A stretch of 42,610 nt of DNA from Candidatus Sysuiplasma jiujiangense. Lineage in GTDB: Archaea; Thermoplasmatota; Thermoplasmata; Sysuiplasmatales; Sysuiplasmataceae. Positions 113-42,432 of the stretch are shown one piece after another; the first letter of the stretch is position 1, and each line of letters begins with the position of its first letter. The DNA is taken from positions 1-42,610 of the forward strand of contig JAHEAD010000017.1 in assembly GCA_019721075.1 (NCBI GenBank), written 5' to 3'. The position numbers were made by a program, and so were the translations under genes. The notes below the pieces were generated by a model that saw nothing but the letters and a program-made list of their open reading frames with translations, did no database searches and was not told the origin of the DNA.

Positions 113-135
113 AGTTAAATAGTGTTCTATAGTAC
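113..135 (+). promoter_or_regulatory. TATA-like promoter region of the sugar-binding protein gene
   Basis: Two AT-rich TATA-like stretches lie before the ATG at 155: agttaaatag (113-122) and ctatagta (about 128-135). The second sits about 25 bases from the ATG, which would give a leaderless or nearly leaderless mRNA. A further ttatatatac box at 43-52 could serve a longer transcript or a gene outside the window. Which is used cannot be told from sequence. Confidence 0.45.
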
Positions 136-154
136 AGACTTAAAAAGTGGTTTT

Positions 155-1765
155 ATGAGTCAACAAGGCAATGAACCTTCAAAGGAGCCTTCAAAGGTGC
201 AAAAGGGGGGACGGACAAAGTGGATAGCCGTAGCTGTTGTAATTGTGGTCATCGTTGCGGCTGGCGGAGTTGCAGCCTATTATCTCACTTTACCAAAGAA
301 GACTACGACCACCACCGTGACCGTAGCAGCACCTATCTATGGTTCCAGTGCTACAGTGTGGGAAAACTGGATCAATAACGCAACTGTCGCCTGGAAAGCT
401 GATCATCCGGGTGTAAAAATCAAGTTTGTCGGTCCGTTTGGTGCAAGCAATGAAGGTGATTATTATACGAAATTGGATCTTATGACGTCATCGCCTTCGA
501 CGGCACCCAGTGTGATGCTGGAAGATATGTTTTATACTGCGACTTATGCAAGTTCGCATGTTCTTCTTCCGCTCAACAGCTATGTTAACAGCAGCGTAAT
601 TTCAAATGAATTCCCTTCAGCCCTTAACCAGATGTCAATAAACAATACCTACTACGGGCTCCCTGCTCAGGTTACTGACACGCTGATATATTACAACATG
701 ACACTTTTCAAGGAAGCTGGTTTGCCGGTTCCTTGGCAACCCACCAACTGGTCGGACATAATCAGTGCTGCGGAGACAATACACTCCCTTTCCAATATGT
801 CGTCCGTCATTCCGCTGAACGCATATGAGGGCATCAAGGCCGATGAAGCATCGTCTTTTACCGGTTTTGAGGGTCTTCTCTACGGAACAGGCTGGGGACT
901 TTACAATTTCACTGCGCACAAGTGGTATGGAGAAAACCCAGGTCTGCTTCAAACGCTTGATTTCTATCAGCAGGCATTTGTCAACAAAAGCCTTGCCTCC
1001 GCCTCTTTAAGCGCTGTTCCATATGTGACAGTCGGTCAGTATCTGCAGGAAGGCAAACTTGCAATTGCGATCGATGGCAGCTGGATGTATGGATATCAGT
1101 GGGGACCAGGCGCACAGCATCCGGTAACAAATTTCCCTAGCTACATCGGTGTTGCAAAGATACCGACAGAATTCGGCCAGTCGCCAGGTTACTCTACCAT
1201 GGTCGGTGGATGGGGATGGGCCGTCTATAATCATACCTCCAATCCCTCTCTGGCTGTTTCATTCGCTGAAGCTCTGGCAAACACAACTAATTCGATTACA
1301 ATAAATCTTCCGGGCAGTGCTCTTGCAGGAGGTCTTCCGACAACAAAGACTGCAGTAAACAATCCTCTTTTCGCCAAACTCATGCCAACCGATCCGTCGC
1401 TGGATGCGTTTTACACCAACCTTCTCCAGTACGGTAATTACAGGCCACCCGTTGCGGGATACCCAAAAGTTTCATACCAGCTCGATGTAGCGATGTCCGC
1501 AGTAGTCCATTCTACAGCATCACCAGCCGCAGCTCTGTCTGCCTATAACAGCGCTTTGATATCCACTTTCGGCTCGTCGGATGTTCAGGCAATTTCATCT
1601 GTTGCCGGCGTCTCTGTCGCCCACAACATTGTAAATTTAAACGGCATTCAGGTTGTTTCAGACTTTGGCCTCAGCGGCACTTCACACTACTCTTCTCTGC
1701 TGTCCTACGGTTTTATGGAGCAATCTTTAAGTGAACTGTCCGCCGTTCCTCTAAGCAGACTCTGA
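155..1765 (+). CDS. Membrane-tethered extracellular sugar-binding protein of an ABC importer (SBP family 1)
   Basis: This 536-residue protein is read as the substrate-binding component of a carbohydrate ABC importer, held on the outer face of the membrane. It has a basic cytoplasmic N-tail, one hydrophobic helix (about residues 25-45, WIAVAVVIVVIVAAGGVAAYY), a Thr-rich linker (TTTTTVTV) and then a family 1 solute-binding domain with recognisable stretches such as AWKADHPGVKIKF, YGLPAQVTDTLIYYN and GGWGWAVYNH. There is no lipobox cysteine, so anchoring is probably by the uncleaved helix, as in many archaeal binding proteins. An upstream in-frame GTG at 122 adds 11 residues, but the ATG at 155 fits the TATA spacing better. 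It is followed by a possible terminator and a separate promoter for the permease genes, so it may be expressed at a different level. The neighbouring alpha-mannosidase suggests a mannose-containing oligosaccharide ligand; that is inference. Confidence 0.88.
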   Translation: MSQQGNEPSKEPSKVQKGGRTKWIAVAVVIVVIVAAGGVAAYYLTLPKKTTTTTVTVAAPIYGSSATVWENWINNATVAWKADHPGVKIKFVGPFGASNEGDYYTKLDLMTSSPSTAPSVMLEDMFYTATYASSHVLLPLNSYVNSSVISNEFPSALNQMSINNTYYGLPAQVTDTLIYYNMTLFKEAGLPVPWQPTNWSDIISAAETIHSLSNMSSVIPLNAYEGIKADEASSFTGFEGLLYGTGWGLYNFTAHKWYGENPGLLQTLDFYQQAFVNKSLASASLSAVPYVTVGQYLQEGKLAIAIDGSWMYGYQWGPGAQHPVTNFPSYIGVAKIPTEFGQSPGYSTMVGGWGWAVYNHTSNPSLAVSFAEALANTTNSITINLPGSALAGGLPTTKTAVNNPLFAKLMPTDPSLDAFYTNLLQYGNYRPPVAGYPKVSYQLDVAMSAVVHSTASPAAALSAYNSALISTFGSSDVQAISSVAGVSVAHNIVNLNGIQVVSDFGLSGTSHYSSLLSYGFMEQSLSELSAVPLSRL

Positions 1766-1769
1766 TGGA

Positions 1770-1811
1770 TTTTTCCTGGCATCCTGTTGCAGAAAACCAT
1801 CGCAGGAAAAA
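1770..1811 (+). repeat. 9-bp inverted repeat downstream of the sugar-binding protein gene
   Basis: TTTTTCCTG at 1770-1778 is the exact reverse complement of CAGGAAAAA at 1803-1811, leaving a 24-base loop. It starts five bases after the stop codon, so it could be an mRNA 3'-end stem that stabilises the binding-protein transcript. Confidence 0.5.
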
Positions 1812-1874
1812 ATGACCGTATTCCATGGATGGCTGTTCAGGGGACATGCGTTGTTTCGGGAAACCGGTAAAACC

Positions 1875-1886
1875 TTTTTGTTTTCT
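1875..1886 (+). terminator. T-rich archaeal-type terminator
   Basis: The run tttttgttttct lies between the binding-protein gene and the permease promoter. Archaeal RNA polymerase terminates at such U-rich tracts without needing a hairpin. Its position would separate the binding-protein transcript from the permease operon. Confidence 0.5.
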
Positions 1887-1904
1887 TCAAATTGCGTTTC
1901 TAAT

Positions 1905-1916
1905 AATTTATTTAAC
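1905..1916 (+). promoter_or_regulatory. TATA box of the permease-ATPase-mannosidase operon
   Basis: aatttatttaac is a good archaeal TATA element. Counting about 26 bases from its centre puts the transcription start near 1937, giving a leader of roughly 18 bases to the ATG at 1955. Confidence 0.55.
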
Positions 1917-1954
1917 ATCGCCTGAAATATGAGGGTATGTTGCTGTAACTGAAG

Positions 1955-2860
1955 ATGACGGTCCTGTTTATGAAAATCAAAGCGCGCAGTGAAGGAAACT
2001 CAAATTTATTCATCCATGTTTATCTCATAGCATCTTTCGGTTTTCTCGCGGCCTTTTTTATTTTCCCTATTGCCCTCTCAATATATTACTCATTCACGAA
2101 TCTCAGTCTCTACAACATATATCAGTTTTCATTTGTTGGACTCAGAAACTATATTTCGCTTTTTACCAGCAGATCGTTCCTGAACTCGTTTTACATAACC
2201 ATGCTCTTCCTGTTTCTATCCGCAATTGTTGGTCAGGCAATGCTAGGCCTCGTGCTCGCATATATGCTTAACACTGTCAGATCCTACTTTCGCACCGTTG
2301 TAACAACCTCGCTTCTGCTTGCATGGGCAACCCCGCAGGTGACAGCAGGCATACTCTGGTACACAACATTAAGCATACAACCGCCTGGTGTTGTCAATCT
2401 GATTCTCTCCTCATTTGGTCTGCATGCAGTGAATTTTCTCGGAATCCGATATGCCATATTTTCGATAATTGTGGCAAACATATGGCTCGGTCTTGCCTTC
2501 TCTGTGCTGATTTATATGGCAGGCATTCAGAATATTAATCCGTCAACTATAAAATCATCAATAGTAGACGGTGCCGGACCGGTGAGCAGATTCATTCATA
2601 TTGTGGTTCCGCAGCTTAAAAACAGCATATTGATGGATGTCATACTCATCACCCTCTTTACTCTTGGCACATTTACGATGGTTTTCACACTTACTGGAGG
2701 GGGACCCGCCGAGACTACCAACCTTCTGACAATCTATCAGTATTACACAGCATTCTCTTTTTTTGATATCGGATTGGGCAGTGCCATTGGAACGATCGTG
2801 ATATGTGTTGCAATAGTACTCTCGTTCCTCTACATCCGCATTATGAGGGTGGGAGTATGA
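1955..2860 (+). CDS. Carbohydrate ABC transporter permease (MalF/UgpA type)
   Basis: This is one of the two integral-membrane subunits forming the translocation channel for the sugar bound by the upstream binding protein. The 301 residues contain about six hydrophobic segments, beginning with LIASFGFLAAFFIFPIALSI. The cytoplasmic coupling (EAA) loop is visible as IVDGAGPVSRFIHIVVPQL, which docks into the ATPase; the leading Glu of the consensus is not conserved, while the D-G and I-x-P core is. Length is normal for the MalF-like subfamily without the long periplasmic insert. A second ATG at 1970 could be the true start. Its 3' end overlaps the next permease in an ATGA arrangement, so translation of the pair is probably coupled. 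Confidence 0.9.
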   Translation: MTVLFMKIKARSEGNSNLFIHVYLIASFGFLAAFFIFPIALSIYYSFTNLSLYNIYQFSFVGLRNYISLFTSRSFLNSFYITMLFLFLSAIVGQAMLGLVLAYMLNTVRSYFRTVVTTSLLLAWATPQVTAGILWYTTLSIQPPGVVNLILSSFGLHAVNFLGIRYAIFSIIVANIWLGLAFSVLIYMAGIQNINPSTIKSSIVDGAGPVSRFIHIVVPQLKNSILMDVILITLFTLGTFTMVFTLTGGGPAETTNLLTIYQYYTAFSFFDIGLGSAIGTIVICVAIVLSFLYIRIMRVGV

Positions 2861-3666
2861 AGATACTCGCAGCTGCCAATTACGTAATACTCGCCGCAAT
2901 AGCTGTCCTTTTTGTTGTGCCCTTTACCTGGCTGGTCGTGGAGAGTTTCAGCCCGCTGAATAATATTGGCGTAACTGCTCCCCCCTATCTCACGCTCAAT
3001 AACTTTGTGGCCGTTACGGCCAACGGCTCGTTCGTGCTTTCCATACTTAATGGCCTGTTACTGTCTCTGGGAGGCACAGCGATATCGCTGCTGTTTGCCA
3101 TTGGCCCGGCATATGTTTTCTCACGAAGGAAGTTCAGATTGAGGAACGGTCTCCTGCTCGCGATCCTCTTTCTGACCGGTTTTCCCACATTCGCTCTTCT
3201 TGTTCCCACATATGCGTACTTCATCCACATCGGGCTGTACAATTCCATCGGGGGTGTGATTCTCTTTCTGGCAGCACTCAATCTTCCCATTACGATATGG
3301 ATATTGAAAAATGCGTTCGATCAGATACCCCTGAATGTGGAGAAGGCTGCAATGGTTGACGGTTCGTCAACTGCTCAGACAATTCTGCATATATTCCTGC
3401 CACTGGCATTTCCGAGCATTGCAGTTGTCGTCATACTTAACTTTGTGCTTAACTGGGGTAATTTCTATGTACCCTTTATATTAATCAGCTCTGGCAATGA
3501 GCTTCCGATTGCTGTTAAAATATACTCATTTTTCGGCGCATACAATGTGAAATATAATGAACTGGCGGCATTATCCTTCGTTTATACAGTCCCTGCGATC
3601 GTGATGTATATATTTGCACAAAAGTACCTGATAAAGGCGTTTTCCTTCGGCGGGAGCAAGGGGTGA
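2857..3666 (+). CDS. Carbohydrate ABC transporter permease (MalG/UgpE type)
   Basis: This is the second permease subunit, expected to pair with the preceding one. From the ATG at 2857, which overlaps the upstream TGA (ATGA), it is 269 residues with about six membrane helices. The first is ILAAIAVLFVVPFTWLVVES. The EAA coupling loop is well preserved: EKAAMVDGSSTAQTILHI followed by FLP. An in-frame upstream start at 2803 would extend it by 18 residues into the upstream gene with unlikely residues, so the overlapping ATG is preferred. The ATPase gene follows immediately with no gap. Confidence 0.9.
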   Translation: MKILAAANYVILAAIAVLFVVPFTWLVVESFSPLNNIGVTAPPYLTLNNFVAVTANGSFVLSILNGLLLSLGGTAISLLFAIGPAYVFSRRKFRLRNGLLLAILFLTGFPTFALLVPTYAYFIHIGLYNSIGGVILFLAALNLPITIWILKNAFDQIPLNVEKAAMVDGSSTAQTILHIFLPLAFPSIAVVVILNFVLNWGNFYVPFILISSGNELPIAVKIYSFFGAYNVKYNELAALSFVYTVPAIVMYIFAQKYLIKAFSFGGSKG

Positions 3667-4752
3667 TTGCAAACGGCAAGCATAAGTGTGAGAAATCTGA
3701 GCAGAACCTTTGGGACCGTAAAGGCTCTCAACGATGTCAATTTTGACATCGCCGATGGTGAATTCTGCGTCATACTTGGCGCTTCGGGCTCTGGAAAAAC
3801 AACACTTCTTAATCTTCTTGCCGGCCTTGAAAAACAGACAACCGGCGATGTCCTGATTGACGGCAAAGTAGTCAATGATAAAGATCCGAAGAGCAGGGGG
3901 ATAGCGATGGTTTTCCAAGACTACGCACTCTATCCGCACATGACGGTCTATGGCAATATGGCATTCCCGCTGAAAATGGCCAGGATGCAGAAAAACGTCA
4001 TTGACTCCAAAGTCAAAAATGTCGCGAGCCAGTTGTCGATTGAGCAACTTCTCCAGAGAAAACCGCGTGAACTTTCCGGTGGGCAGGCCCAGAGAGTCGC
4101 TGTCGGCAGAGCTCTGGTGCGTGATCCTTCCGTCTTCCTGATGGATGAACCACTCAGTAACCTTGATGCCAAGATAAGATCGCAGGTGAGAACAGACCTG
4201 AAGGTCCTCCACAGGGAGCTGAAGAAGACATTTGTGTACGTCACTCACGACCAGCAGGAAGCGATGTCACTGTCGGACAAAATTATACTTATAGACAATG
4301 GCAGTGTTTCGCAGATAGGAAGCCCTCTTGATGTATATAATTCGCCAGCGAACATAACTGTCGCCACATTCCTCGGCGATCCTCCAACCAACATATTCAA
4401 AGCACATGCTGAAAAAGGTGTTTTTATCAGCGATCTTTCCCCGCTTAAAATAGCTACAGACAGGGAACGTATCAAGATAGGCATCAGGCCGGAGGCATTT
4501 CAGCTTGAGGGAGGCCCTAACTGCGCCTATGCCGATCTCAGCGTGATAACAGTTGAGTCGTTCGGTTCCCATATGATTGTCACTTGCGAAACTGAAAGCA
4601 AAGCCACCGTGAAAATAAGGATTTCGAATAGACCCTTCAAGGAAAACAGATTAAGGGTATATGTTCAACCGCCATTCATGCATCTGTTTGATGACAGCGA
4701 CGGAAAGAGACTTCTGGACGTCGATATAACACCGGCAGCAGCCCCCCGGTAG
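3667..4752 (+). CDS. Carbohydrate ABC transporter ATP-binding protein (MalK/UgpC/MsmX type)
   Basis: This is the cytoplasmic ATPase that powers the two permeases. The nucleotide-binding domain shows Walker A GASGSGKT (38-45), Q-loop around VFQDYALYPHM, signature LSGGQ (136-140), Walker B VFLMDE (156-161), D-loop NLDAK and switch His194 (THDQQEAM). After about residue 235 comes the extra C-terminal beta domain typical of sugar-importer ATPases (LGDPPTNIF, then KIGIRPEAF). At 361 residues it has the family's usual length. The start is TTG directly after the permease stop, with the sequence ggggtga just upstream as ribosome binding site. It could energise other sugar binding proteins too, as MsmX-type ATPases sometimes do. 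Confidence 0.92.
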   Translation: MQTASISVRNLSRTFGTVKALNDVNFDIADGEFCVILGASGSGKTTLLNLLAGLEKQTTGDVLIDGKVVNDKDPKSRGIAMVFQDYALYPHMTVYGNMAFPLKMARMQKNVIDSKVKNVASQLSIEQLLQRKPRELSGGQAQRVAVGRALVRDPSVFLMDEPLSNLDAKIRSQVRTDLKVLHRELKKTFVYVTHDQQEAMSLSDKIILIDNGSVSQIGSPLDVYNSPANITVATFLGDPPTNIFKAHAEKGVFISDLSPLKIATDRERIKIGIRPEAFQLEGGPNCAYADLSVITVESFGSHMIVTCETESKATVKIRISNRPFKENRLRVYVQPPFMHLFDDSDGKRLLDVDITPAAAPR

Positions 4753-4764
4753 TCTGGTGGTCGG

Positions 4765-5142
4765 TTGCGTTCAGTGAAGTTTATATCTGTTTTGCTGACA
4801 CTGGTTGTAGTGTCGGTTGCGGTTGCATCTATAAGTGCGAGCAGGCATACAGAGGAAGCAAAAGTCACAATAACGAATCTTGAAATCGGTTTCTTCGGAA
4901 TATCTCCTGCCACGAACATTTCCTATCCACGCAGTGTCCTGGCCAATTCATCTTTCAGTATTTCCATGAATGTCGTTGAAAATGTCACGCGGGTGTATAT
5001 AACAACTCCAGGGTTTGAAGTCATCAACTGGCATCTTTCGTATACCGATCTGACGGTTTCCGTAATTTACAGGCAGGCTGCATATATCGGTATTCTATCA
5101 ATGCATGTCGTGGGCAATATTCCCTTTCCGGTAATATACTGA
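4765..5142 (+). CDS. Small exported or membrane-anchored protein of unknown function in the sugar operon
   Basis: I do not recognise this 125-residue protein. It begins with a signal-anchor (about residues 6-22, FISVLLTLVVVSVAVASIS), so most of it should lie outside the cell. The remainder is Ile/Val/Thr/Ser-rich with alternating hydrophobic residues and N-x-S/T sites, suggesting a small beta-sandwich. It contains no cysteine. The TTG start at 4765 is 12 bases after the ATPase stop and is preceded by ggtggtc. The mannosidase gene follows after nine bases, so it is firmly inside the operon. An accessory role in glycan capture, or in anchoring the binding protein, is a guess from context only. 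Confidence 0.65.
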   Translation: MRSVKFISVLLTLVVVSVAVASISASRHTEEAKVTITNLEIGFFGISPATNISYPRSVLANSSFSISMNVVENVTRVYITTPGFEVINWHLSYTDLTVSVIYRQAAYIGILSMHVVGNIPFPVIY

Positions 5143-5151
5143 GGTGAGTTA

Positions 5152-8115
5152 ATGAATTCTGTCGATGGCATTTATGAGACTGTTCGGGAATTGAAGAAGA
5201 GGGCGTCATATTTCATACTTGCCAGTGTAGTAGAACCAGAGCAAATTCGGAACTGGAAAAGAAAAAAGATGCCCCTTGAGGAAGCCGAAGCATTCAGATG
5301 TGATTACTATTCGCTTGAAAGCGAATATTCAACCGAAGGAGAATCCTTCGTCTATTTTGGCGTTCCGGGAAGTGCGATGATGCTTATCGACGGAAAGGTA
5401 TACTTCGGCATCGATGCCTTCCATAGAATCGTGGATGTCCCGGAAGGAAGCCATCAAATTCGACTGGAAGCAACACATAGAGGACTTTTTGGAAACAAAA
5501 CTTTTTCTTCCATACCATTCAACGCAGTGCTGTTCAAAAAAAATATTCTTTATGAAAAGATATACTACAAACTGATTACGCTGCTCGATTTCATACTGAT
5601 TTCCCGGGATGAAACTAAACTGAACACTCTTCTGGAAATGTACGAAAGTTTCCCCCTTCTAAATGTCAGCGCTCTCGCTTACATCGTGCATGGAGACCTT
5701 TTTTCAGACGACTTCACATTTTCTGATGCGGCCTTAAAGATTCTGAAACTGAAAGAGAGGAACGAGAGCATCCTGGAAGATGTAAAATCGGCGAACAAAC
5801 TGTCCGAGGAAATAGACATCCTCCTTCGTGACTGCCGCCTGTCTGTGGAATGCACCATTATGCCTCTGGGGCATGCACACACAGATCTCGCATGGTTGTG
5901 GCCTGTAGCCGAAACCACCAGAAAATCATTGCGCACTTTTGCCAGTGTGCTTCATCTGCTGGAGAAATTTGATTTTTTGTTTGTCCAGTCCATGGCATGG
6001 CATTACAAGCTTGTGGAAGATGCCGGATCTGATTATGCTATCGACATCTTTGACCGAATAAGGAAAATGGTGTCACAGGGGAAATGGGTGCCAATTGGAG
6101 GCATGATGGTTGAACCGGACTGCAACCTTACATCAGGTGAGTCGATTGTGAGGCAGGCGCTGTATGGCCAGCTTTATTTCCAGGAAAAATTTGGAACAAA
6201 GAGCAGCATTGCTTGGCTTCCGGACACATTTGGCTTCTCCCCGCAGCTGCCGCAAATTCTTCGGCTTTCCGGTTTCGACCTTTTTCTGACAACAAAACTC
6301 TCCTGGAACGACACAAACAGATTCCCGCATGATATGTTCACTTGGACTGGTATTGATGGAACAGCAATAGCTGCTCATTCCCACATGAGAACTTACAACT
6401 CAGATCTCTCTCCCGTTGATCTTGCAGAATCGCTTGAACTCCATCCGGAGACGAAAATAACAGGAATTATGCCGGTAATCTTTGGAAAGGGAGATGGCGG
6501 CGGCGGTCCAACAGGTGAAATGCTGGAACAGCTGGATGTTATTCGAAAGACAAAAAGCGCCGTAACAACCGGGAATACACTCTATGCCTGGCTGGAATCG
6601 ATTAAGCACAATATGGAGAAGCTGCCACGCTTTAACGGCGAACTGTATCTGGAATACCATAGAGGCACCTATACGACGCATGCGGACATCAAGAAACTGA
6701 ACAGGAAGACAGAAAGCCTTCTTTTCCTCGCGGAGGCTCATGCTGTTGCGGCGTCGGTACATTCTCGCAGCACACCCAGCAGATTCAGAGCGGAATGGGA
6801 AGTATTGCTTAAAAATCAGTTTCATGACATCCTTCCTGGCTCATCCGTCAGGCAGGTCTACATCGACTCAGTATCGGAGCTTTCCGAACTGGATGAAAAA
6901 CTCAACCGCCTGATAGCGGATAATACCGGGGAAGCTGAAAATTTTTCAATCTTCTGTCCCTATTCGTGGCCGACTTCATACTTGATGGAACTCGGAGATA
7001 AATTTTCAGATGGCGATATCCTTGTATCGGAAAGCGGCACATGGTATCCTGTTTTTACTGCTTGTCACAGAAAGTTTGTCGAACTGAAATTTGAAGAAGG
7101 CATGGGTTTTTATGGATACACGAAGAAAAAGGGCAGTCAAACCCGGCCTGCTGTCATTCACCGGAAGGATTTTGTTGCAGGGAATTGGCATGTCCGTATA
7201 GAAAAGAACAGAATTTGCAGTCTCTCATTCTCTGACAGGGAGATGCCGCCTCCCGATTTCCGTCTGTTTCAGGATTTCCCGTCGGCATTCGACGCGTGGG
7301 AACTCGACAGGAAAAAAATTGAAAGCGGCCGCAGTCTCGATCCCCATGATATCAGAATCTCGGCTCCGGAAAACGGCTGCGTGGCGATCAGGCAACGTTA
7401 TGATCTATTTCCCGGATCAATGACGGTTGAATATCTGTTTTTCTCTGATGGATTATGCAGAATGTTTTTCAACGTCGATTGGAGGGGAAACAACCGGCTC
7501 CTTCGCATGTATTTCAAAACTGGCGGCAACCGCTGTCACGGTGAGGTTGCCTACGGGCACGTGGTAAGGAAATCAGAAGGGGCAGTTTTTGAGTTCCCTG
7601 CCCAACGTTTTATCTGTGTGGAAACTGCCGCAGGCCTGTTTGCACTTTTCAACGATGGAAAATACGGTAACTCCTTTGAGGATGGAATGCTGGGAACGAG
7701 TCTTCTTCGTTCTCCTGTTTATCCGGACATTCATTCAGATCGCGGTAATAACCTTTTTTCATTTGCATTTGGTTTCATTGGAGACTTGCAACAGTGCCAT
7801 CAGGAAGGTTTCAAGTTTAACGTGCCCCCATCCGTCTGCTCGCACACCGGCAGATCCAAATTCCGACTGGAAGGAGCGATGCTCGGTGCTCTGAAGGCTG
7901 CGGAACACGATAACACAATAATTGCAAGACTCTACAACCCTTCGGAGAAAACGATGAAGTTCAGGCTTGCAGTTCCATTCGAACTGTCTGACTGCCGCAT
8001 GTGTGATCTGCTTGAAAACAACCGTGAAGGGACCTCACTGGAAATTGCCGGCACCGAGATAAAGGGAAGCATTCATAAGTTTGGAATAATCACACTCAAG
8101 TTAACACCAAAATAA
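5152..8115 (+). CDS. Glycoside hydrolase family 38 alpha-mannosidase
   Basis: This 987-residue enzyme should hydrolyse terminal alpha-mannose from oligosaccharides with retention of configuration, using a catalytic zinc. Family GH38 signatures are clear: HAHTDLAWLWP with zinc ligands His243 and Asp245, the nucleophile Asp358 in WLPDTFGFSPQLPQIL, GKGDGGGGPTGEM, and His558 in NQFHDILPGSS. The N-terminal 230 residues and the C-terminal beta region (after about 640) match the expected multi-domain layout. No signal peptide is present, so it acts in the cytoplasm, presumably on glycans brought in by the ABC importer encoded upstream. The ATG at 5152 is preceded by gaggtgagtta, a good ribosome binding site, and is nine bases from the previous stop. 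The exact linkage specificity cannot be told. Confidence 0.93.
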   Translation: MNSVDGIYETVRELKKRASYFILASVVEPEQIRNWKRKKMPLEEAEAFRCDYYSLESEYSTEGESFVYFGVPGSAMMLIDGKVYFGIDAFHRIVDVPEGSHQIRLEATHRGLFGNKTFSSIPFNAVLFKKNILYEKIYYKLITLLDFILISRDETKLNTLLEMYESFPLLNVSALAYIVHGDLFSDDFTFSDAALKILKLKERNESILEDVKSANKLSEEIDILLRDCRLSVECTIMPLGHAHTDLAWLWPVAETTRKSLRTFASVLHLLEKFDFLFVQSMAWHYKLVEDAGSDYAIDIFDRIRKMVSQGKWVPIGGMMVEPDCNLTSGESIVRQALYGQLYFQEKFGTKSSIAWLPDTFGFSPQLPQILRLSGFDLFLTTKLSWNDTNRFPHDMFTWTGIDGTAIAAHSHMRTYNSDLSPVDLAESLELHPETKITGIMPVIFGKGDGGGGPTGEMLEQLDVIRKTKSAVTTGNTLYAWLESIKHNMEKLPRFNGELYLEYHRGTYTTHADIKKLNRKTESLLFLAEAHAVAASVHSRSTPSRFRAEWEVLLKNQFHDILPGSSVRQVYIDSVSELSELDEKLNRLIADNTGEAENFSIFCPYSWPTSYLMELGDKFSDGDILVSESGTWYPVFTACHRKFVELKFEEGMGFYGYTKKKGSQTRPAVIHRKDFVAGNWHVRIEKNRICSLSFSDREMPPPDFRLFQDFPSAFDAWELDRKKIESGRSLDPHDIRISAPENGCVAIRQRYDLFPGSMTVEYLFFSDGLCRMFFNVDWRGNNRLLRMYFKTGGNRCHGEVAYGHVVRKSEGAVFEFPAQRFICVETAAGLFALFNDGKYGNSFEDGMLGTSLLRSPVYPDIHSDRGNNLFSFAFGFIGDLQQCHQEGFKFNVPPSVCSHTGRSKFRLEGAMLGALKAAEHDNTIIARLYNPSEKTMKFRLAVPFELSDCRMCDLLENNREGTSLEIAGTEIKGSIHKFGIITLKLTPK

Positions 8116-38283: not shown

Positions 38284-38366
38284 GCGCCGGAAAGGATCCT
38301 GCCGGCAGCGAGGCAATCATGTCAGGATTTGTCACTCATTGGTTATCCAGAACGCCTGTGTGGCGG

Positions 38367-38433: not shown

Positions 38434-41400
38434 ATGACGGGTAAAACAGTTGCTTTCAGTATAGCTGTTGCGCTTGTCCTGGTGATCTCCGGCGCGTTTG
38501 CTTTCGCAGTAACCGCCGTTCATCCGGCCAGCGCAGGAACAAACGCGGTTGCATATTCGCAGCAGGGCAGCGGAATTTCCTCTGCAGGCGGGACGGCATT
38601 ATCCAGTTCTTCTTCATCGCCCCAGACGACGGGTTCCGGCGTGTCATCCGGCGCAGGACCATATCCCAAATCCGCTGCGGCGACTTCTCCGTACATAACG
38701 GCGGCGAAGAATGCTGGAGTGCCGCTTCAGTATGTCTACATACCGGCACCGAAAAGGGCACCGATAATCAACGGTAATGTAGTAATGCCGGGCTATGCAC
38801 AGGGACCGGCACCGTTCGGTATCGGCGCATATGGAATAAGGAATGTTTCCGGAACGCTCGAGCCGTTTATGTACACGACAACTGCATTCAATTCAAGCTT
38901 CAACGCAACACAGCTGAATGCGTTTGATGTTAATTCCTTTGATCCGAACGGCCTGACTGTACAGCTCAACGCAGTCCTCACTGGAACGACTGTCGACGGT
39001 GTAACAGGCTACACATACTGGACGCAGAACGTGATGTTCTACGACAGTTATGCACATCAGTTCGAAATGGTTGACAACATATGGAATTTCAGTTCTCCCA
39101 GAGCAACTATGCCTTCTTCAACCATCTACAGCCACACCGCTTCGCAGCAAGCGTATCCTTACGCCTACATCGGCGTCGGGCCGGTAATCAATAACGTGAG
39201 CACGCCCTTTGTCGCAAACCTGTCGCTGCAGTCCGCGGTGGTCGACGGAATGAGCGCCGTTTTCTTCAACTACACATTAACGTTCACCAACTCCAGCACG
39301 GGTAAAATGCAGCAGATTGGCGGCGTCTTCGACGAAGTTCTTTTCAATTCACTCAACGGCGTCCTCGGCTATTCCGCACCCCTTCCGGTATACAGGGTTG
39401 ACGGCGGAAACCTCACGCCGACCGGATACATCCCCTACGATGCCGAAGTAGGCATTATAGGCCCGGGCGGCGGAAGCCAGATCAACATACAGACGATAAG
39501 CGGAACACTCAACCTGGATTACAAAAATGCTGCCGGCAAGATGGTGAACGTTCCGAGCGCATACGACATTGGCTCAGAAACAGGCGAAACCTCGACCGGA
39601 ATTGCGGAAGCGTGGCAACCGTCCGGAACGGTGACACTTTCCTCGGGCCCGTCGCTTGTCTACGGCATGTGGGACATTGCACCGTTCAGCGGCGTGACGC
39701 ATTACACCGGGACAATCAGCCCTGCCAATGCATTCATGTTCGTGAGCCCCGGCAGTTCCCTTTCGCTGGGGCAGTATGGATATGTCACGACTTCGACCGG
39801 AGGCAAATACAGCTTCTGGCTGCCTACGGGGACGTACTCGCAGGGAGTGATGATGAGCTACCGCAACCCTGAATCCGGCCCTCTTTCGCAGTCCGAGAAC
39901 ATCGTTCTCACCATGAACTCAGCAATGGGCGTCTACACGCCGCTGTACGCCATGGGCAATGCTGAAGCTGCAAACATATCGCTCTCCGGGAACGGGACGC
40001 TCGGGAATCCCTATCTCGCATACAGCAACCAGCCGGGATACATCAGCCCGTATTTCGGCATGATGAATGTTTACGGCTTCCCCGTATTTTCAGGCATACA
40101 GATTGCAGACACGGACGTTTACATCAATTTCAACAATTCACCTTCATTCAGCATCCTGTACGAGCAGCCGCAGACCTCTCTTTACCTCGGGCTGCTGTAC
40201 TTCGTTCCCTCCGTAAACAATCTCGGCTATGTATTCTACAACACATCGAACCTTTCGGTATACGGTGCGAAACTCATAACAGGCACCATCCCCGCCGACT
40301 ATGCGGCGGGCTTCTACGGCGCAAATATAATGATGTGGAATTCAACGCACGATCTCATTGCGAACTCAACCTTCGTGGGCAATGTCTTCTTGCCATTTCA
40401 GATCTCCGTCCTTATCTATGATACGGGTACAATGAACGGCACCAACGTACTGTTCGGCAACCACTTCCTGGACAGCTCGCTCAGCTTTGGTCTGGGAATT
40501 GCAAGCTCAGGCAATCTCATATTCAACAACTACTTTGCAGACCAAGCAGCGAATGTCATTCAGTTCCCGTTTAATCTTTACACGCTTACCTCCATCCTTT
40601 ACGTAGATACCTGGAATGTCACTCCTGCACTTACCAGCACATTCGTCTACCATTTCAACGGCTACAACCTCAAGGGAAACATAGTAGGGAATGCAACAAT
40701 GGGCGGCAACTTCTGGAATGACTTTGTCCCCGGCGTGAGCACCTTACCCTTTAACGACAACGGCAACATATTTGTCGGCGGGGATTATGCTCCTGTCACG
40801 TACTCCGGCGCTTCGTATGCGCCATATGTCCCGCTCATATTCTTCGAAACTGGGCTTGCGGCCGGCCAGTCATGGTCTGTAAATCTGTCAGGTTATGTAC
40901 AGACAACCACATCCAACATGATGACTTTCTATGTTCTTCCGAATGCAGTCTACAGCTATATCGTCGGGAACGTGTCGGGATACATTGATTTCTTCGGAAA
41001 CCCCGGTTCGGTATTCGCATCGTCCGGTGCAAACGTGGTCAGTCTGCTGTTTCTGCCGTACTACACAATAACGCTGAAGGAAACAGGCCTGCCCGCGGGA
41101 TACAGCTGGGAAGGGGCTATCCTTTATCGCGGGATTTTCCCAGTCACAAGCAACACGAGCAGTACTGACGTGATGACATTCGAATGGGTGCCCGGTACAT
41201 GGTACCTCGGTGTATCGCCAACAGGCTACTACTACAATTTCCCGGAGTACTACTCATATTCATTCAACATCACGTATGTTTCGCTCTTCAGCAACGTATC
41301 AGGTACTATGAACATGGCACCGATATACAACAACTTCACGTTCACACCGATAGGCATTGCAACCGGCACGCCGTGGAGCGTAACAGTCTGGACAATGCTG

Positions 41401-42432
41401 CAAGGAGGGGTGACTGTACCGGTGGGCACATTCTCCTCGACAAACACGAGTCTTACGGTACCGCTCATCGAGGCCGTCTATGGTTTCAGCTTCAGTTCGG
41501 GCAGCTACTACATGTCCGGAAGCAACCCTTCGTCGTTTGAATTCTCACCTTACTGTTACCCGGGTATCGGGTTCTCTGTATACACCGGGTATGCGGTGAC
41601 ATTCGATGTCAGCAACCTGCCTTCCGGAACCGAGTGGAATCTTGAGGCCAGTGCTTTCAACGTCTATTTCTATCTGAGCGCTTCCACATCTTCCAGCACC
41701 CTTACTGTCACACTACCCGCCGATGGCGTTTACTACGCCATCATACCTGCAAACAGCTCGTTCCAGACATACTCCAACGATCTACTTGTGAATGCACCTA
41801 CAACAGTCAATGTAGCCATGCAGCTTAATCCTGGTTCACAGGTCACGGTGACATTCAGCGAAAGCGGCCTGTCCTCCGGTACATCGTGGCAGGTCACATT
41901 CAACGGACAGACACAGTCTTCAACGGCCTCAACGATATCCTTCACAACAACTCCGGGAACATACTACTACCAGGCATATTCAAACGGCAGCGTATCCCCG
42001 CAGAGCCCGGGTTCGCTGAACGTGCAGCACTCGATGACAGTGGATGTGTCGTTCTACGCACAGACATACACAGTGACCTTCATTGCGGCCGGCATCCCGT
42101 CAGGAGCGGCAATGACGCTGACCTTCAACGGCAGGACGGTGACGACCACAAGCCAGATTGCAGGCTTCATCGTTCCATCTGGCACATACGGCTTCACAGC
42201 GAGTGTAAAGGGATACACGCTCTCCTCCTCGACGACCACCGTCAAAGTCGGGCAGAACACAATCGTTCTGCTCCAGTTCAAACCGACCACGACGCCGAGC
42301 AAGACGAGTTCCATCCCCTCACTGCTTGTTGACAGCGGCCTCCTCATCCTGGGACTTGTGGTGGGCGCAGTCGTCGCCTATGCAGTCATCAGGCATGAAG
42401 CGTCCAGGAAGAAGGGCAAAGGAAACACCTGA
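38434..42432 (+). CDS. Giant thermopsin-family (peptidase A5) surface protein
   Basis: This 1332-residue protein is exported and membrane-anchored. A signal peptide (about residues 5-30, VAFSIAVALVLVISGAFAFA) is followed by a Ser/Ala/Gly-rich linker and a thermopsin-like domain: PFGIGAYGIRNVSGTLEPFM, VNSFDPNGLTVQLNAVL, YTYWTQNVMFYDSY and VDNIWNFSSP are typical. Thermopsins are acid proteases acting outside the cell; the catalytic residues of the family are not firmly known, so activity is inferred. A middle part with repeated N-x-F and short turns (for example TNVLFGNHFLDSSLSFG) resembles a beta helix. The last 540 residues hold about six related modules and end in a helix (LLILGLVVGAVVAYAVI) and a basic tail. 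Many N-x-S/T sites suggest heavy glycosylation. The frame is open to 38329, but ATG 38434 fits signal peptide and promoter. Confidence 0.87.
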   Translation: MTGKTVAFSIAVALVLVISGAFAFAVTAVHPASAGTNAVAYSQQGSGISSAGGTALSSSSSSPQTTGSGVSSGAGPYPKSAAATSPYITAAKNAGVPLQYVYIPAPKRAPIINGNVVMPGYAQGPAPFGIGAYGIRNVSGTLEPFMYTTTAFNSSFNATQLNAFDVNSFDPNGLTVQLNAVLTGTTVDGVTGYTYWTQNVMFYDSYAHQFEMVDNIWNFSSPRATMPSSTIYSHTASQQAYPYAYIGVGPVINNVSTPFVANLSLQSAVVDGMSAVFFNYTLTFTNSSTGKMQQIGGVFDEVLFNSLNGVLGYSAPLPVYRVDGGNLTPTGYIPYDAEVGIIGPGGGSQINIQTISGTLNLDYKNAAGKMVNVPSAYDIGSETGETSTGIAEAWQPSGTVTLSSGPSLVYGMWDIAPFSGVTHYTGTISPANAFMFVSPGSSLSLGQYGYVTTSTGGKYSFWLPTGTYSQGVMMSYRNPESGPLSQSENIVLTMNSAMGVYTPLYAMGNAEAANISLSGNGTLGNPYLAYSNQPGYISPYFGMMNVYGFPVFSGIQIADTDVYINFNNSPSFSILYEQPQTSLYLGLLYFVPSVNNLGYVFYNTSNLSVYGAKLITGTIPADYAAGFYGANIMMWNSTHDLIANSTFVGNVFLPFQISVLIYDTGTMNGTNVLFGNHFLDSSLSFGLGIASSGNLIFNNYFADQAANVIQFPFNLYTLTSILYVDTWNVTPALTSTFVYHFNGYNLKGNIVGNATMGGNFWNDFVPGVSTLPFNDNGNIFVGGDYAPVTYSGASYAPYVPLIFFETGLAAGQSWSVNLSGYVQTTTSNMMTFYVLPNAVYSYIVGNVSGYIDFFGNPGSVFASSGANVVSLLFLPYYTITLKETGLPAGYSWEGAILYRGIFPVTSNTSSTDVMTFEWVPGTWYLGVSPTGYYYNFPEYYSYSFNITYVSLFSNVSGTMNMAPIYNNFTFTPIGIATGTPWSVTVWTMLQGGVTVPVGTFSSTNTSLTVPLIEAVYGFSFSSGSYYMSGSNPSSFEFSPYCYPGIGFSVYTGYAVTFDVSNLPSGTEWNLEASAFNVYFYLSASTSSSTLTVTLPADGVYYAIIPANSSFQTYSNDLLVNAPTTVNVAMQLNPGSQVTVTFSESGLSSGTSWQVTFNGQTQSSTASTISFTTTPGTYYYQAYSNGSVSPQSPGSLNVQHSMTVDVSFYAQTYTVTFIAAGIPSGAAMTLTFNGRTVTTTSQIAGFIVPSGTYGFTASVKGYTLSSSTTTVKVGQNTIVLLQFKPTTTPSKTSSIPSLLVDSGLLILGLVVGAVVAYAVIRHEASRKKGKGNT
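40828..42260 (+). repeat. About six related beta-sandwich-like modules in the thermopsin-like protein
   Basis: Modules begin near 40828, 41062, 41332, 41593, 41842 and 42070. Each opens with a variant of V-T-F-x-E-x-G-L-P-x-G-x-x-W-x-V, for example FFETGLAAGQSWSVNL, LKETGLPAGYSWEG, TFSESGLSSGTSWQVTF and TFIAAGIPSGAAMTLTF. Copies are diverged at the DNA level. The pattern is common in surface proteins of Thermoplasmata and likely forms a stalk. Confidence 0.75.

Follow-up and report, generated by a model that had tools for sequence, protein, structure and literature searches.

Thermopsins carried on a stalk and anchored in the membrane are already known from Sulfolobus, in the form of SsMTP, SsMTP-1 (SSO1175), M164_1049 and Saci1846. 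SsMTP-1 of S. solfataricus was purified and is active at pH 2, is insensitive to pepstatin, and features repeats and a carboxyl-terminal anchor (PMC3958906). M164_1049 is its orthologue. Both M164_1049 and Saci1846 are secondary stalks of the surface layer (S-layer) that help SlaB to anchor SlaA (PMC6712394, PMC12207459), and the model of Saci1846 has three immunoglobulin (Ig)-like domains and a carboxyl-terminal transmembrane helix (PMC12207459, PMC6712394). The fold, mechanism and catalytic residues of thermopsins, which form peptidase family A5, were considered unestablished in a 2013 review, at which time the family had no solved structure (PMC3842238). A reading of the present DNA from sequence alone (the sequence-only reading) took the same view of the catalytic residues, and no later solution of an A5 structure or active site was found in the papers and PDB sequences searched. 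Here we describe the thermopsin gene that is the last gene of contig JAHEAD010000017.1 from the uncultured acidophilic archaeon Candidatus Sysuiplasma jiujiangense; the window analysed, of 42,610 nucleotides, is the whole contig. The gene (38434-42432, plus strand) probably codes for an acid endopeptidase of family A5 that is secreted and stays tethered to the cell.

Thermopsin domain and candidate active site

The open reading frame (ORF) starts with an ATG at 38434, has its stop codon ending at 42432 and yields a product of 1332 amino acids; all its features below are on the plus strand. Residues 117-400 (38782..39633) form the thermopsin domain. The family profile PF05317 matches residues 118-389 over its positions 6-255 of 256 with E=9.1e-49 and a score of 166.7 bits, far above the cut-off of 25, as the sequence-only reading had anticipated. 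AlphaFold2 (AF2) modelling of residues 60-880 from 62 sequences gave a mean predicted local distance difference test (pLDDT) of 88.4 and a predicted template modelling score (pTM) of 0.83. In the thermopsin domain pLDDT is mostly above 90 and the model consists almost wholly of strands. The predicted fold is thus all-beta, as expected for A5, and not the unrelated fold that would have told against the assignment.

The thermopsin domain is under the strongest purifying selection within the gene. Ratios of nonsynonymous to synonymous substitution rates (dN/dS), computed by NG86 against the two closest orthologues, are 0.05-0.065 for this domain, ~0.08 for the beta-helix that follows it, 0.10-0.13 for stalk module 5 and 0.15-0.2 for modules 1-4; dS is near or above 1, which makes the values approximate, and their ranking is consistent.

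Conservation was assessed on 62, then 82 non-redundant thermopsin domains, all from Thermoplasmata, and equivalences to thermopsin numbering were assigned by motif, the alignment having no Sulfolobus sequence. Gln177 and Asn179 (38962..38970) are invariant (82/82 each), as are Trp196 and Gln198 in the group Trp196, Gln198, Asn199 (39019..39030). The DNIWN motif at residues 214-218 (39073..39087) has Asp214 in 75/82 domains, Asn215 in 81/82, and Trp217 and Asn218 in 82/82 each. The best conserved acids are Asp300 (39331..39333; 81/82), equivalent to Asp228, Asp336 (39439..39441; 79/82, the others being two Asn and one Glu), equivalent to Asp257, and Glu385 (81/82), equivalent to Glu305 and part of the segment Glu382-Thr-Gly-Glu385 (39577..39588). 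Glu338 is found in 75/82 domains. The motif equivalents of Gln109, Asn111, Gln128, Asn148, Asp228, Asp257 and Glu305 are all present, each in 79 to 82 of the 82 domains, and the window protein retains every near-universal polar residue of the family, so that the loss of conserved acids, which the sequence-only reading had named as fatal to its proposal, is not seen. Since these residues are kept and selection is strongest on their domain, the protein is best read as an active acid protease.

The 2013 review listed Asp129, 144, 228, 257 and 302 together with several amides as catalytic candidates (PMC3842238). Asp144 has its equivalent in Asp214. The position of Asp129 is occupied by Asn199 in the window protein; this column has Asn in 44 and Asp in 38 of the 82 domains, and Asn in 28/28 proteins of the beta-helix branch described below. 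Position 382, equivalent to Asp302, is Asp in 50, Asn in 17, Glu in 13 and Ser in two domains, the window protein having Glu. Because both columns vary, Asn199 and Glu382 are not family-defining, and the equivalents of Asp129 and Asp302 look unlikely as catalytic residues. The candidate acids are thereby narrowed to the three near-universal ones, Asp300, Asp336 and Glu385, a shortlist for which a small mutagenesis set would be decisive.

Glu382 in place of the commoner Asp could be taken as a sign that the protein is a pseudo-enzyme, its beta-helix serving in adhesion or glycan binding. Beta-helices and Ig stalks are both common in adhesins, and the fold matches of the stalk are pilins and surface anchors. 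This explanation is nevertheless improbable: position 382 varies throughout the family and is Glu in 12/27 helix-bearing relatives, all other near-universal residues are present, and locus L070 holds a more plausible dead copy. The thermopsin coded there at 375-2864 lacks both Glu385 and Asn215. Judged by its sequence this single case may be a dead copy, the paired loss fitting a linked loss of function. It is the first of three thermopsin genes within one stretch (L070:375-16183).

In the AF2 model Gln177, Asn179, Trp196, Gln198, Asn215 and Trp217 probably line one face of a sheet, and Asn199 and Asp214 the other; the assignment uses predicted strands 173-187, 190-204 and 209-218, with limits from DSSP and an assumed simple hairpin register. 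From conservation and these predicted strands, catalysis would most likely proceed via Glu385 with Asp300 and/or Asp336, beside the amide- and Trp-lined face. A bolder and tentative proposal, which we consider possible at best, is that A5 enzymes are beta-sandwich acid peptidases rather than pepsin-like aspartic ones, with a catalytic Glu385 (Glu305 in thermopsin) that acts together with Asp300 or Asp336 and that sheet face, that they resemble the mucinase HC7 in structure, and that the beta-helix branch is a dedicated digester of surface glycoproteins.

HC7, a di-glutamate mucinase of Bacillus cereus (PMC13003899), enters this proposal through Foldseek. When the 821 amino-terminal residues were compared with the PDB, only eight chains scored below E=0.001 and all were HC7. 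The best match has E=2.6e-6 and probability 1.0, yet a template modelling (TM) score of 0.28 on the target and a root-mean-square deviation of 24 Å, so that globally the match is weak. Kinship of thermopsin with HC7 is a lead only. Sequence profiles of the thermopsin domain, alone or with the helix, found nothing in the PDB up to E=10, and the viral fold library gave only weak multi-domain matches with TM-scores near 0.1. Homology to G1 eqolisins (PF01828) was rejected: the profile gave no match, and the comparison by hhalign of 62 thermopsin domains with 20 Thermoplasmata G1 proteins reached at best a probability of 1%, over 12-14 columns. Profile-profile comparisons were likewise non-significant for homology to PNGase A and for a pepsin-like internal duplication in the thermopsin domain.

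The beta-helix branch and the stalk

The thermopsin domain is followed by a small carboxypeptidase-D-regulatory-like beta domain (residues 401-500; 39634..39933) and a right-handed, NosD-like beta-helix (residues 501-797; 39934..40824). The former is defined by CarboxypepD_reg matches among family members (best 5e-5) and by its own profile, which matches 27/27 helix-bearing relatives. NosD (PF05048) scores 20.4 bits on the window protein, just below the Pfam cut-off of 23.6 (E=4e-4). In relatives the best E values are 3.6e-9 for NosD and 3.9e-6 for Beta_helix (PF13229), in support of the beta-helix-like middle proposed earlier.

The beta-helix is carried by 28 proteins, the window protein included, among 62 thermopsin domains. 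Membership was first set by similarity to the window protein, and a profile of the helix served as independent check: it matched 27/27 other members and 0/34 remaining thermopsins. In a tree of the thermopsin domain alone the 28/28 helix-bearing proteins form exactly one clade with support of 0.997, which spans five Thermoplasmata families (f1, f8, f24, f27 and f29).

Six Ig-like stalk modules of 73-88 amino acids each span residues 798-1284, as the sequence-only reading had estimated. They were delimited by their opening motif [T/V]F-x-E-[T/S]-G-L-P-x-G-x-x-W, by alignment and by AF2: module 1, residues 798-877 (40825..41064); module 2, 878-964 (41065..41325); module 3, 965-1052 (41326..41589); module 4, 1053-1136 (41590..41841); module 5, 1137-1211 (41842..42066), the best conserved with 65-86% identity in orthologues; and module 6, 1212-1284 (42067..42285), absent from 3/5 orthologues. 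Two close orthologues lack ~1210-1282 or 1211-1290, that is module 6, which supports the boundaries. Profile scores of the six modules are in part high by construction, all six being rows of the model. No module has a family of its own in the Pfam scan of the window protein, and related proteins match the PEGA and carboxypeptidase-regulatory families; a search of the protein against NCBIfam found no family. AF2 modelling of the stalk with 15 sequences (pLDDT 80.8) predicts six separate beta-sandwiches of seven or so strands each and a terminal transmembrane helix; the low pTM of 0.43 is explained by modules moving freely relative to one another. The AF2 models are consistent with the domain blocks defined from sequence. 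In the PDB, Foldseek matched the stalk to Gram-positive pilins, to surface stalks and to the TIE protein of B. anthracis.

The membrane anchor surmised before is a predicted hydrophobic helix at residues 1298-1318 (42325..42387), extended to 1328 by AF2, and is accompanied by a basic, putatively cytoplasmic tail, IRHEASRKKGKGNT (residues 1319-1332; 42388..42429). At the other end, a signal peptide or hydrophobic segment (residues 1-33; 38434..38532) has hydropathy above 1.6 in windows 1-15 and starts at the same Met in orthologues. As a start codon the ATG is preferred to an in-frame TTG at 38329, because the signal peptide begins there and the nearest orthologues align from its Met. A Ser/Thr-rich linker or possible propeptide, recognised by composition, follows (residues 34-116; 38533..38781). 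It is the fastest-evolving amino-terminal part, and the model of residues 60-880 starts with 24 residues of pLDDT below 50. There is no acidic residue in positions 1-116. The complete protein is charge-poor, with an acidic-neutral surface (52 Asp/Glu versus 27 Lys/Arg), a single Cys and 28 N-x-S/T sequons distributed across the thermopsin domain, helix and stalk.

The gene ends 178 bases from the contig end, as might be the case if the ORF were a chance product or a mis-assembled fusion of separate genes. There is practically no likelihood of this, since the same domain order recurs in five orthologues on unrelated contigs, with 54-84% identity across residues 60-880. The orthologues refute a stop-to-stop or fused-gene artefact, and with the dN/dS of the thermopsin domain they also exclude a chance ORF.

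The host genome is a Thermoplasmata assembly of 2.29 Mb in 55 contigs. Among the 349 genomes of the class that are at least 80% complete, 139 contain thermopsins, and many of these contain several copies. Most thermopsin ORFs of the class have 500-1500 amino acids; long thermopsins are therefore not rare and, Ig-stalked, membrane-anchored ones being published for Sulfolobus, the architecture is not the unusual one supposed earlier. At locus L063 (3889-7811, minus strand) two thermopsin genes of 639 and 645 amino acids lie in direct tandem. A 1343-amino-acid thermopsin at L071 (4435-8463, plus strand) has a run of near-identical 79-amino-acid stalk modules, which suggests recent module expansion.

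Upstream of the window gene are RNA polymerase subunits, a 240-amino-acid ORF and a radical-SAM-like ORF, named by reading their translations. These flanking genes were not found near the orthologues, so that the neighbourhood is not conserved and gives no function. No thermopsin occurs in plasmid records or viral contigs, and there is thus no sign of mobile or viral origin. At 122-8115 the window has, judged by eye from translations, an apparent operon for a sugar ABC transporter and, after it, an alpha-mannosidase (GH38)-like ORF of 987 amino acids.

Probable function at the cell surface

The protein would be exported by its signal peptide and anchored by the carboxyl-terminal helix with the basic tail inside. 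The six Ig-like modules, in the order read from the sequence, might extend and hold the rigid beta-helix and the thermopsin domain at the tip off the membrane, where the latter would cleave protein or glycoprotein substrates in the acidic medium. With the enzyme attached, the released peptides would stay close to the cell, which could then take them up. Bulky substrate would most likely be presented or bound by the beta-helix and the small carboxypeptidase-D-like domain, the weakest step of this scheme. Of the two roles offered by the sequence-only reading, a cell-surface digestion machine appears the most economical; an adhesion protein finds no support here.

In favour of proteolysis, related proteins of similar plan (signal, thermopsin domain, repeats, anchor), such as SsMTP-1, are active proteases at pH 2, and the same stalk module occurs on a transmembrane-anchored S53-type protease of the same genome. 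Several points weigh against it. A5 catalytic residues have no experimental assignment, the pepstatin insensitivity of SsMTP-1 would, by analogy, leave the catalytic class unsettled, the contig ends shortly after the gene, and a Sulfolobus relative suggests that a structural role in S-layer anchoring might apply. The window protein could accordingly be chiefly a structural stalk by which a coat of protein or a matrix of glycoprotein is held to the membrane, proteolysis being secondary or lost, like M164_1049 and Saci1846, whose plan (signal, thermopsin, Ig-like domains, transmembrane helix) it shares. We regard this as rather unlikely: the thermopsin domain has lost none of its active-site-type residues and is the part under the strongest selection. 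Cultured Thermoplasmatales are moreover reported to have no S-layer (PMC12448462), though the surface of the host lineage may differ.

A 20-kb stretch (C7) of the same genome codes for a helix-bearing thermopsin that lacks the stalk, a thermopsin-PNGase A fusion and the S53-type protease. By association this cluster supports a shared role in extracellular digestion of proteins and glycoproteins. The fusion, a paralogue of 1302 amino acids combining protease and deglycosylase (L057:11516-15421, minus strand; C7:31515-35420), matches thermopsin with E=5e-58 and PNGase A with E=8.6e-19. Of the PNGase A hits listed across 45 genomes of the class, it alone was recognised as part of a thermopsin protein. 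Directly downstream, the pro-kumamolisin/S53-type protease gene (L057:9237-11555, minus strand; C7:29236-31554) codes for one copy of the stalk module and a carboxyl-terminal transmembrane helix. Large surface proteins with the module are also found at L104, L105 and L106 (C13, C1 and C14 of the same genome); one of them ends in a DUF835 domain and another matches an NHL repeat. The module serves as a general-purpose component of surface proteins, and acidophilic Thermoplasmata reuse it to tether both thermopsin and an S53-type protease.

Comparison with described systems

HC7 (PDB 8pmu, 8pn3, 8pn5) is the sole significant PDB fold match of the 821 amino-terminal residues, but its global superposition is poor and PDB profile searches reveal no sequence-profile similarity. 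Thermopsin of S. acidocaldarius, the MEROPS A5 type peptidase, shares the Pfam domain and the motif set (PMC3842238); it is secreted, short and devoid of stalk, with Asp in its QDV and DTG motifs where the window protein has Asn199 and Glu382. SsMTP and SsMTP-1 have a signal sequence, an amino-terminal thermopsin domain, carboxyl-terminal repeat domains and a transmembrane or anchor segment (PMC3958906). SsMTP-1 differs in its length of ~600 residues by the coordinates given and in its two repeat regions, and a beta-helix is not described for it. Saci1846 and M164_1049 are alike in signal sequence, thermopsin family, Ig-like domains and transmembrane helix, all elements of the Saci1846/SsMTP-type plan being present in the window protein. 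Saci1846 has three Ig-like domains versus six here, no beta-helix is mentioned for it, and S-layer anchoring is the role described for these proteins. New with respect to the literature found are the beta-helix branch and how far it extends, together with a sharper list of residues.

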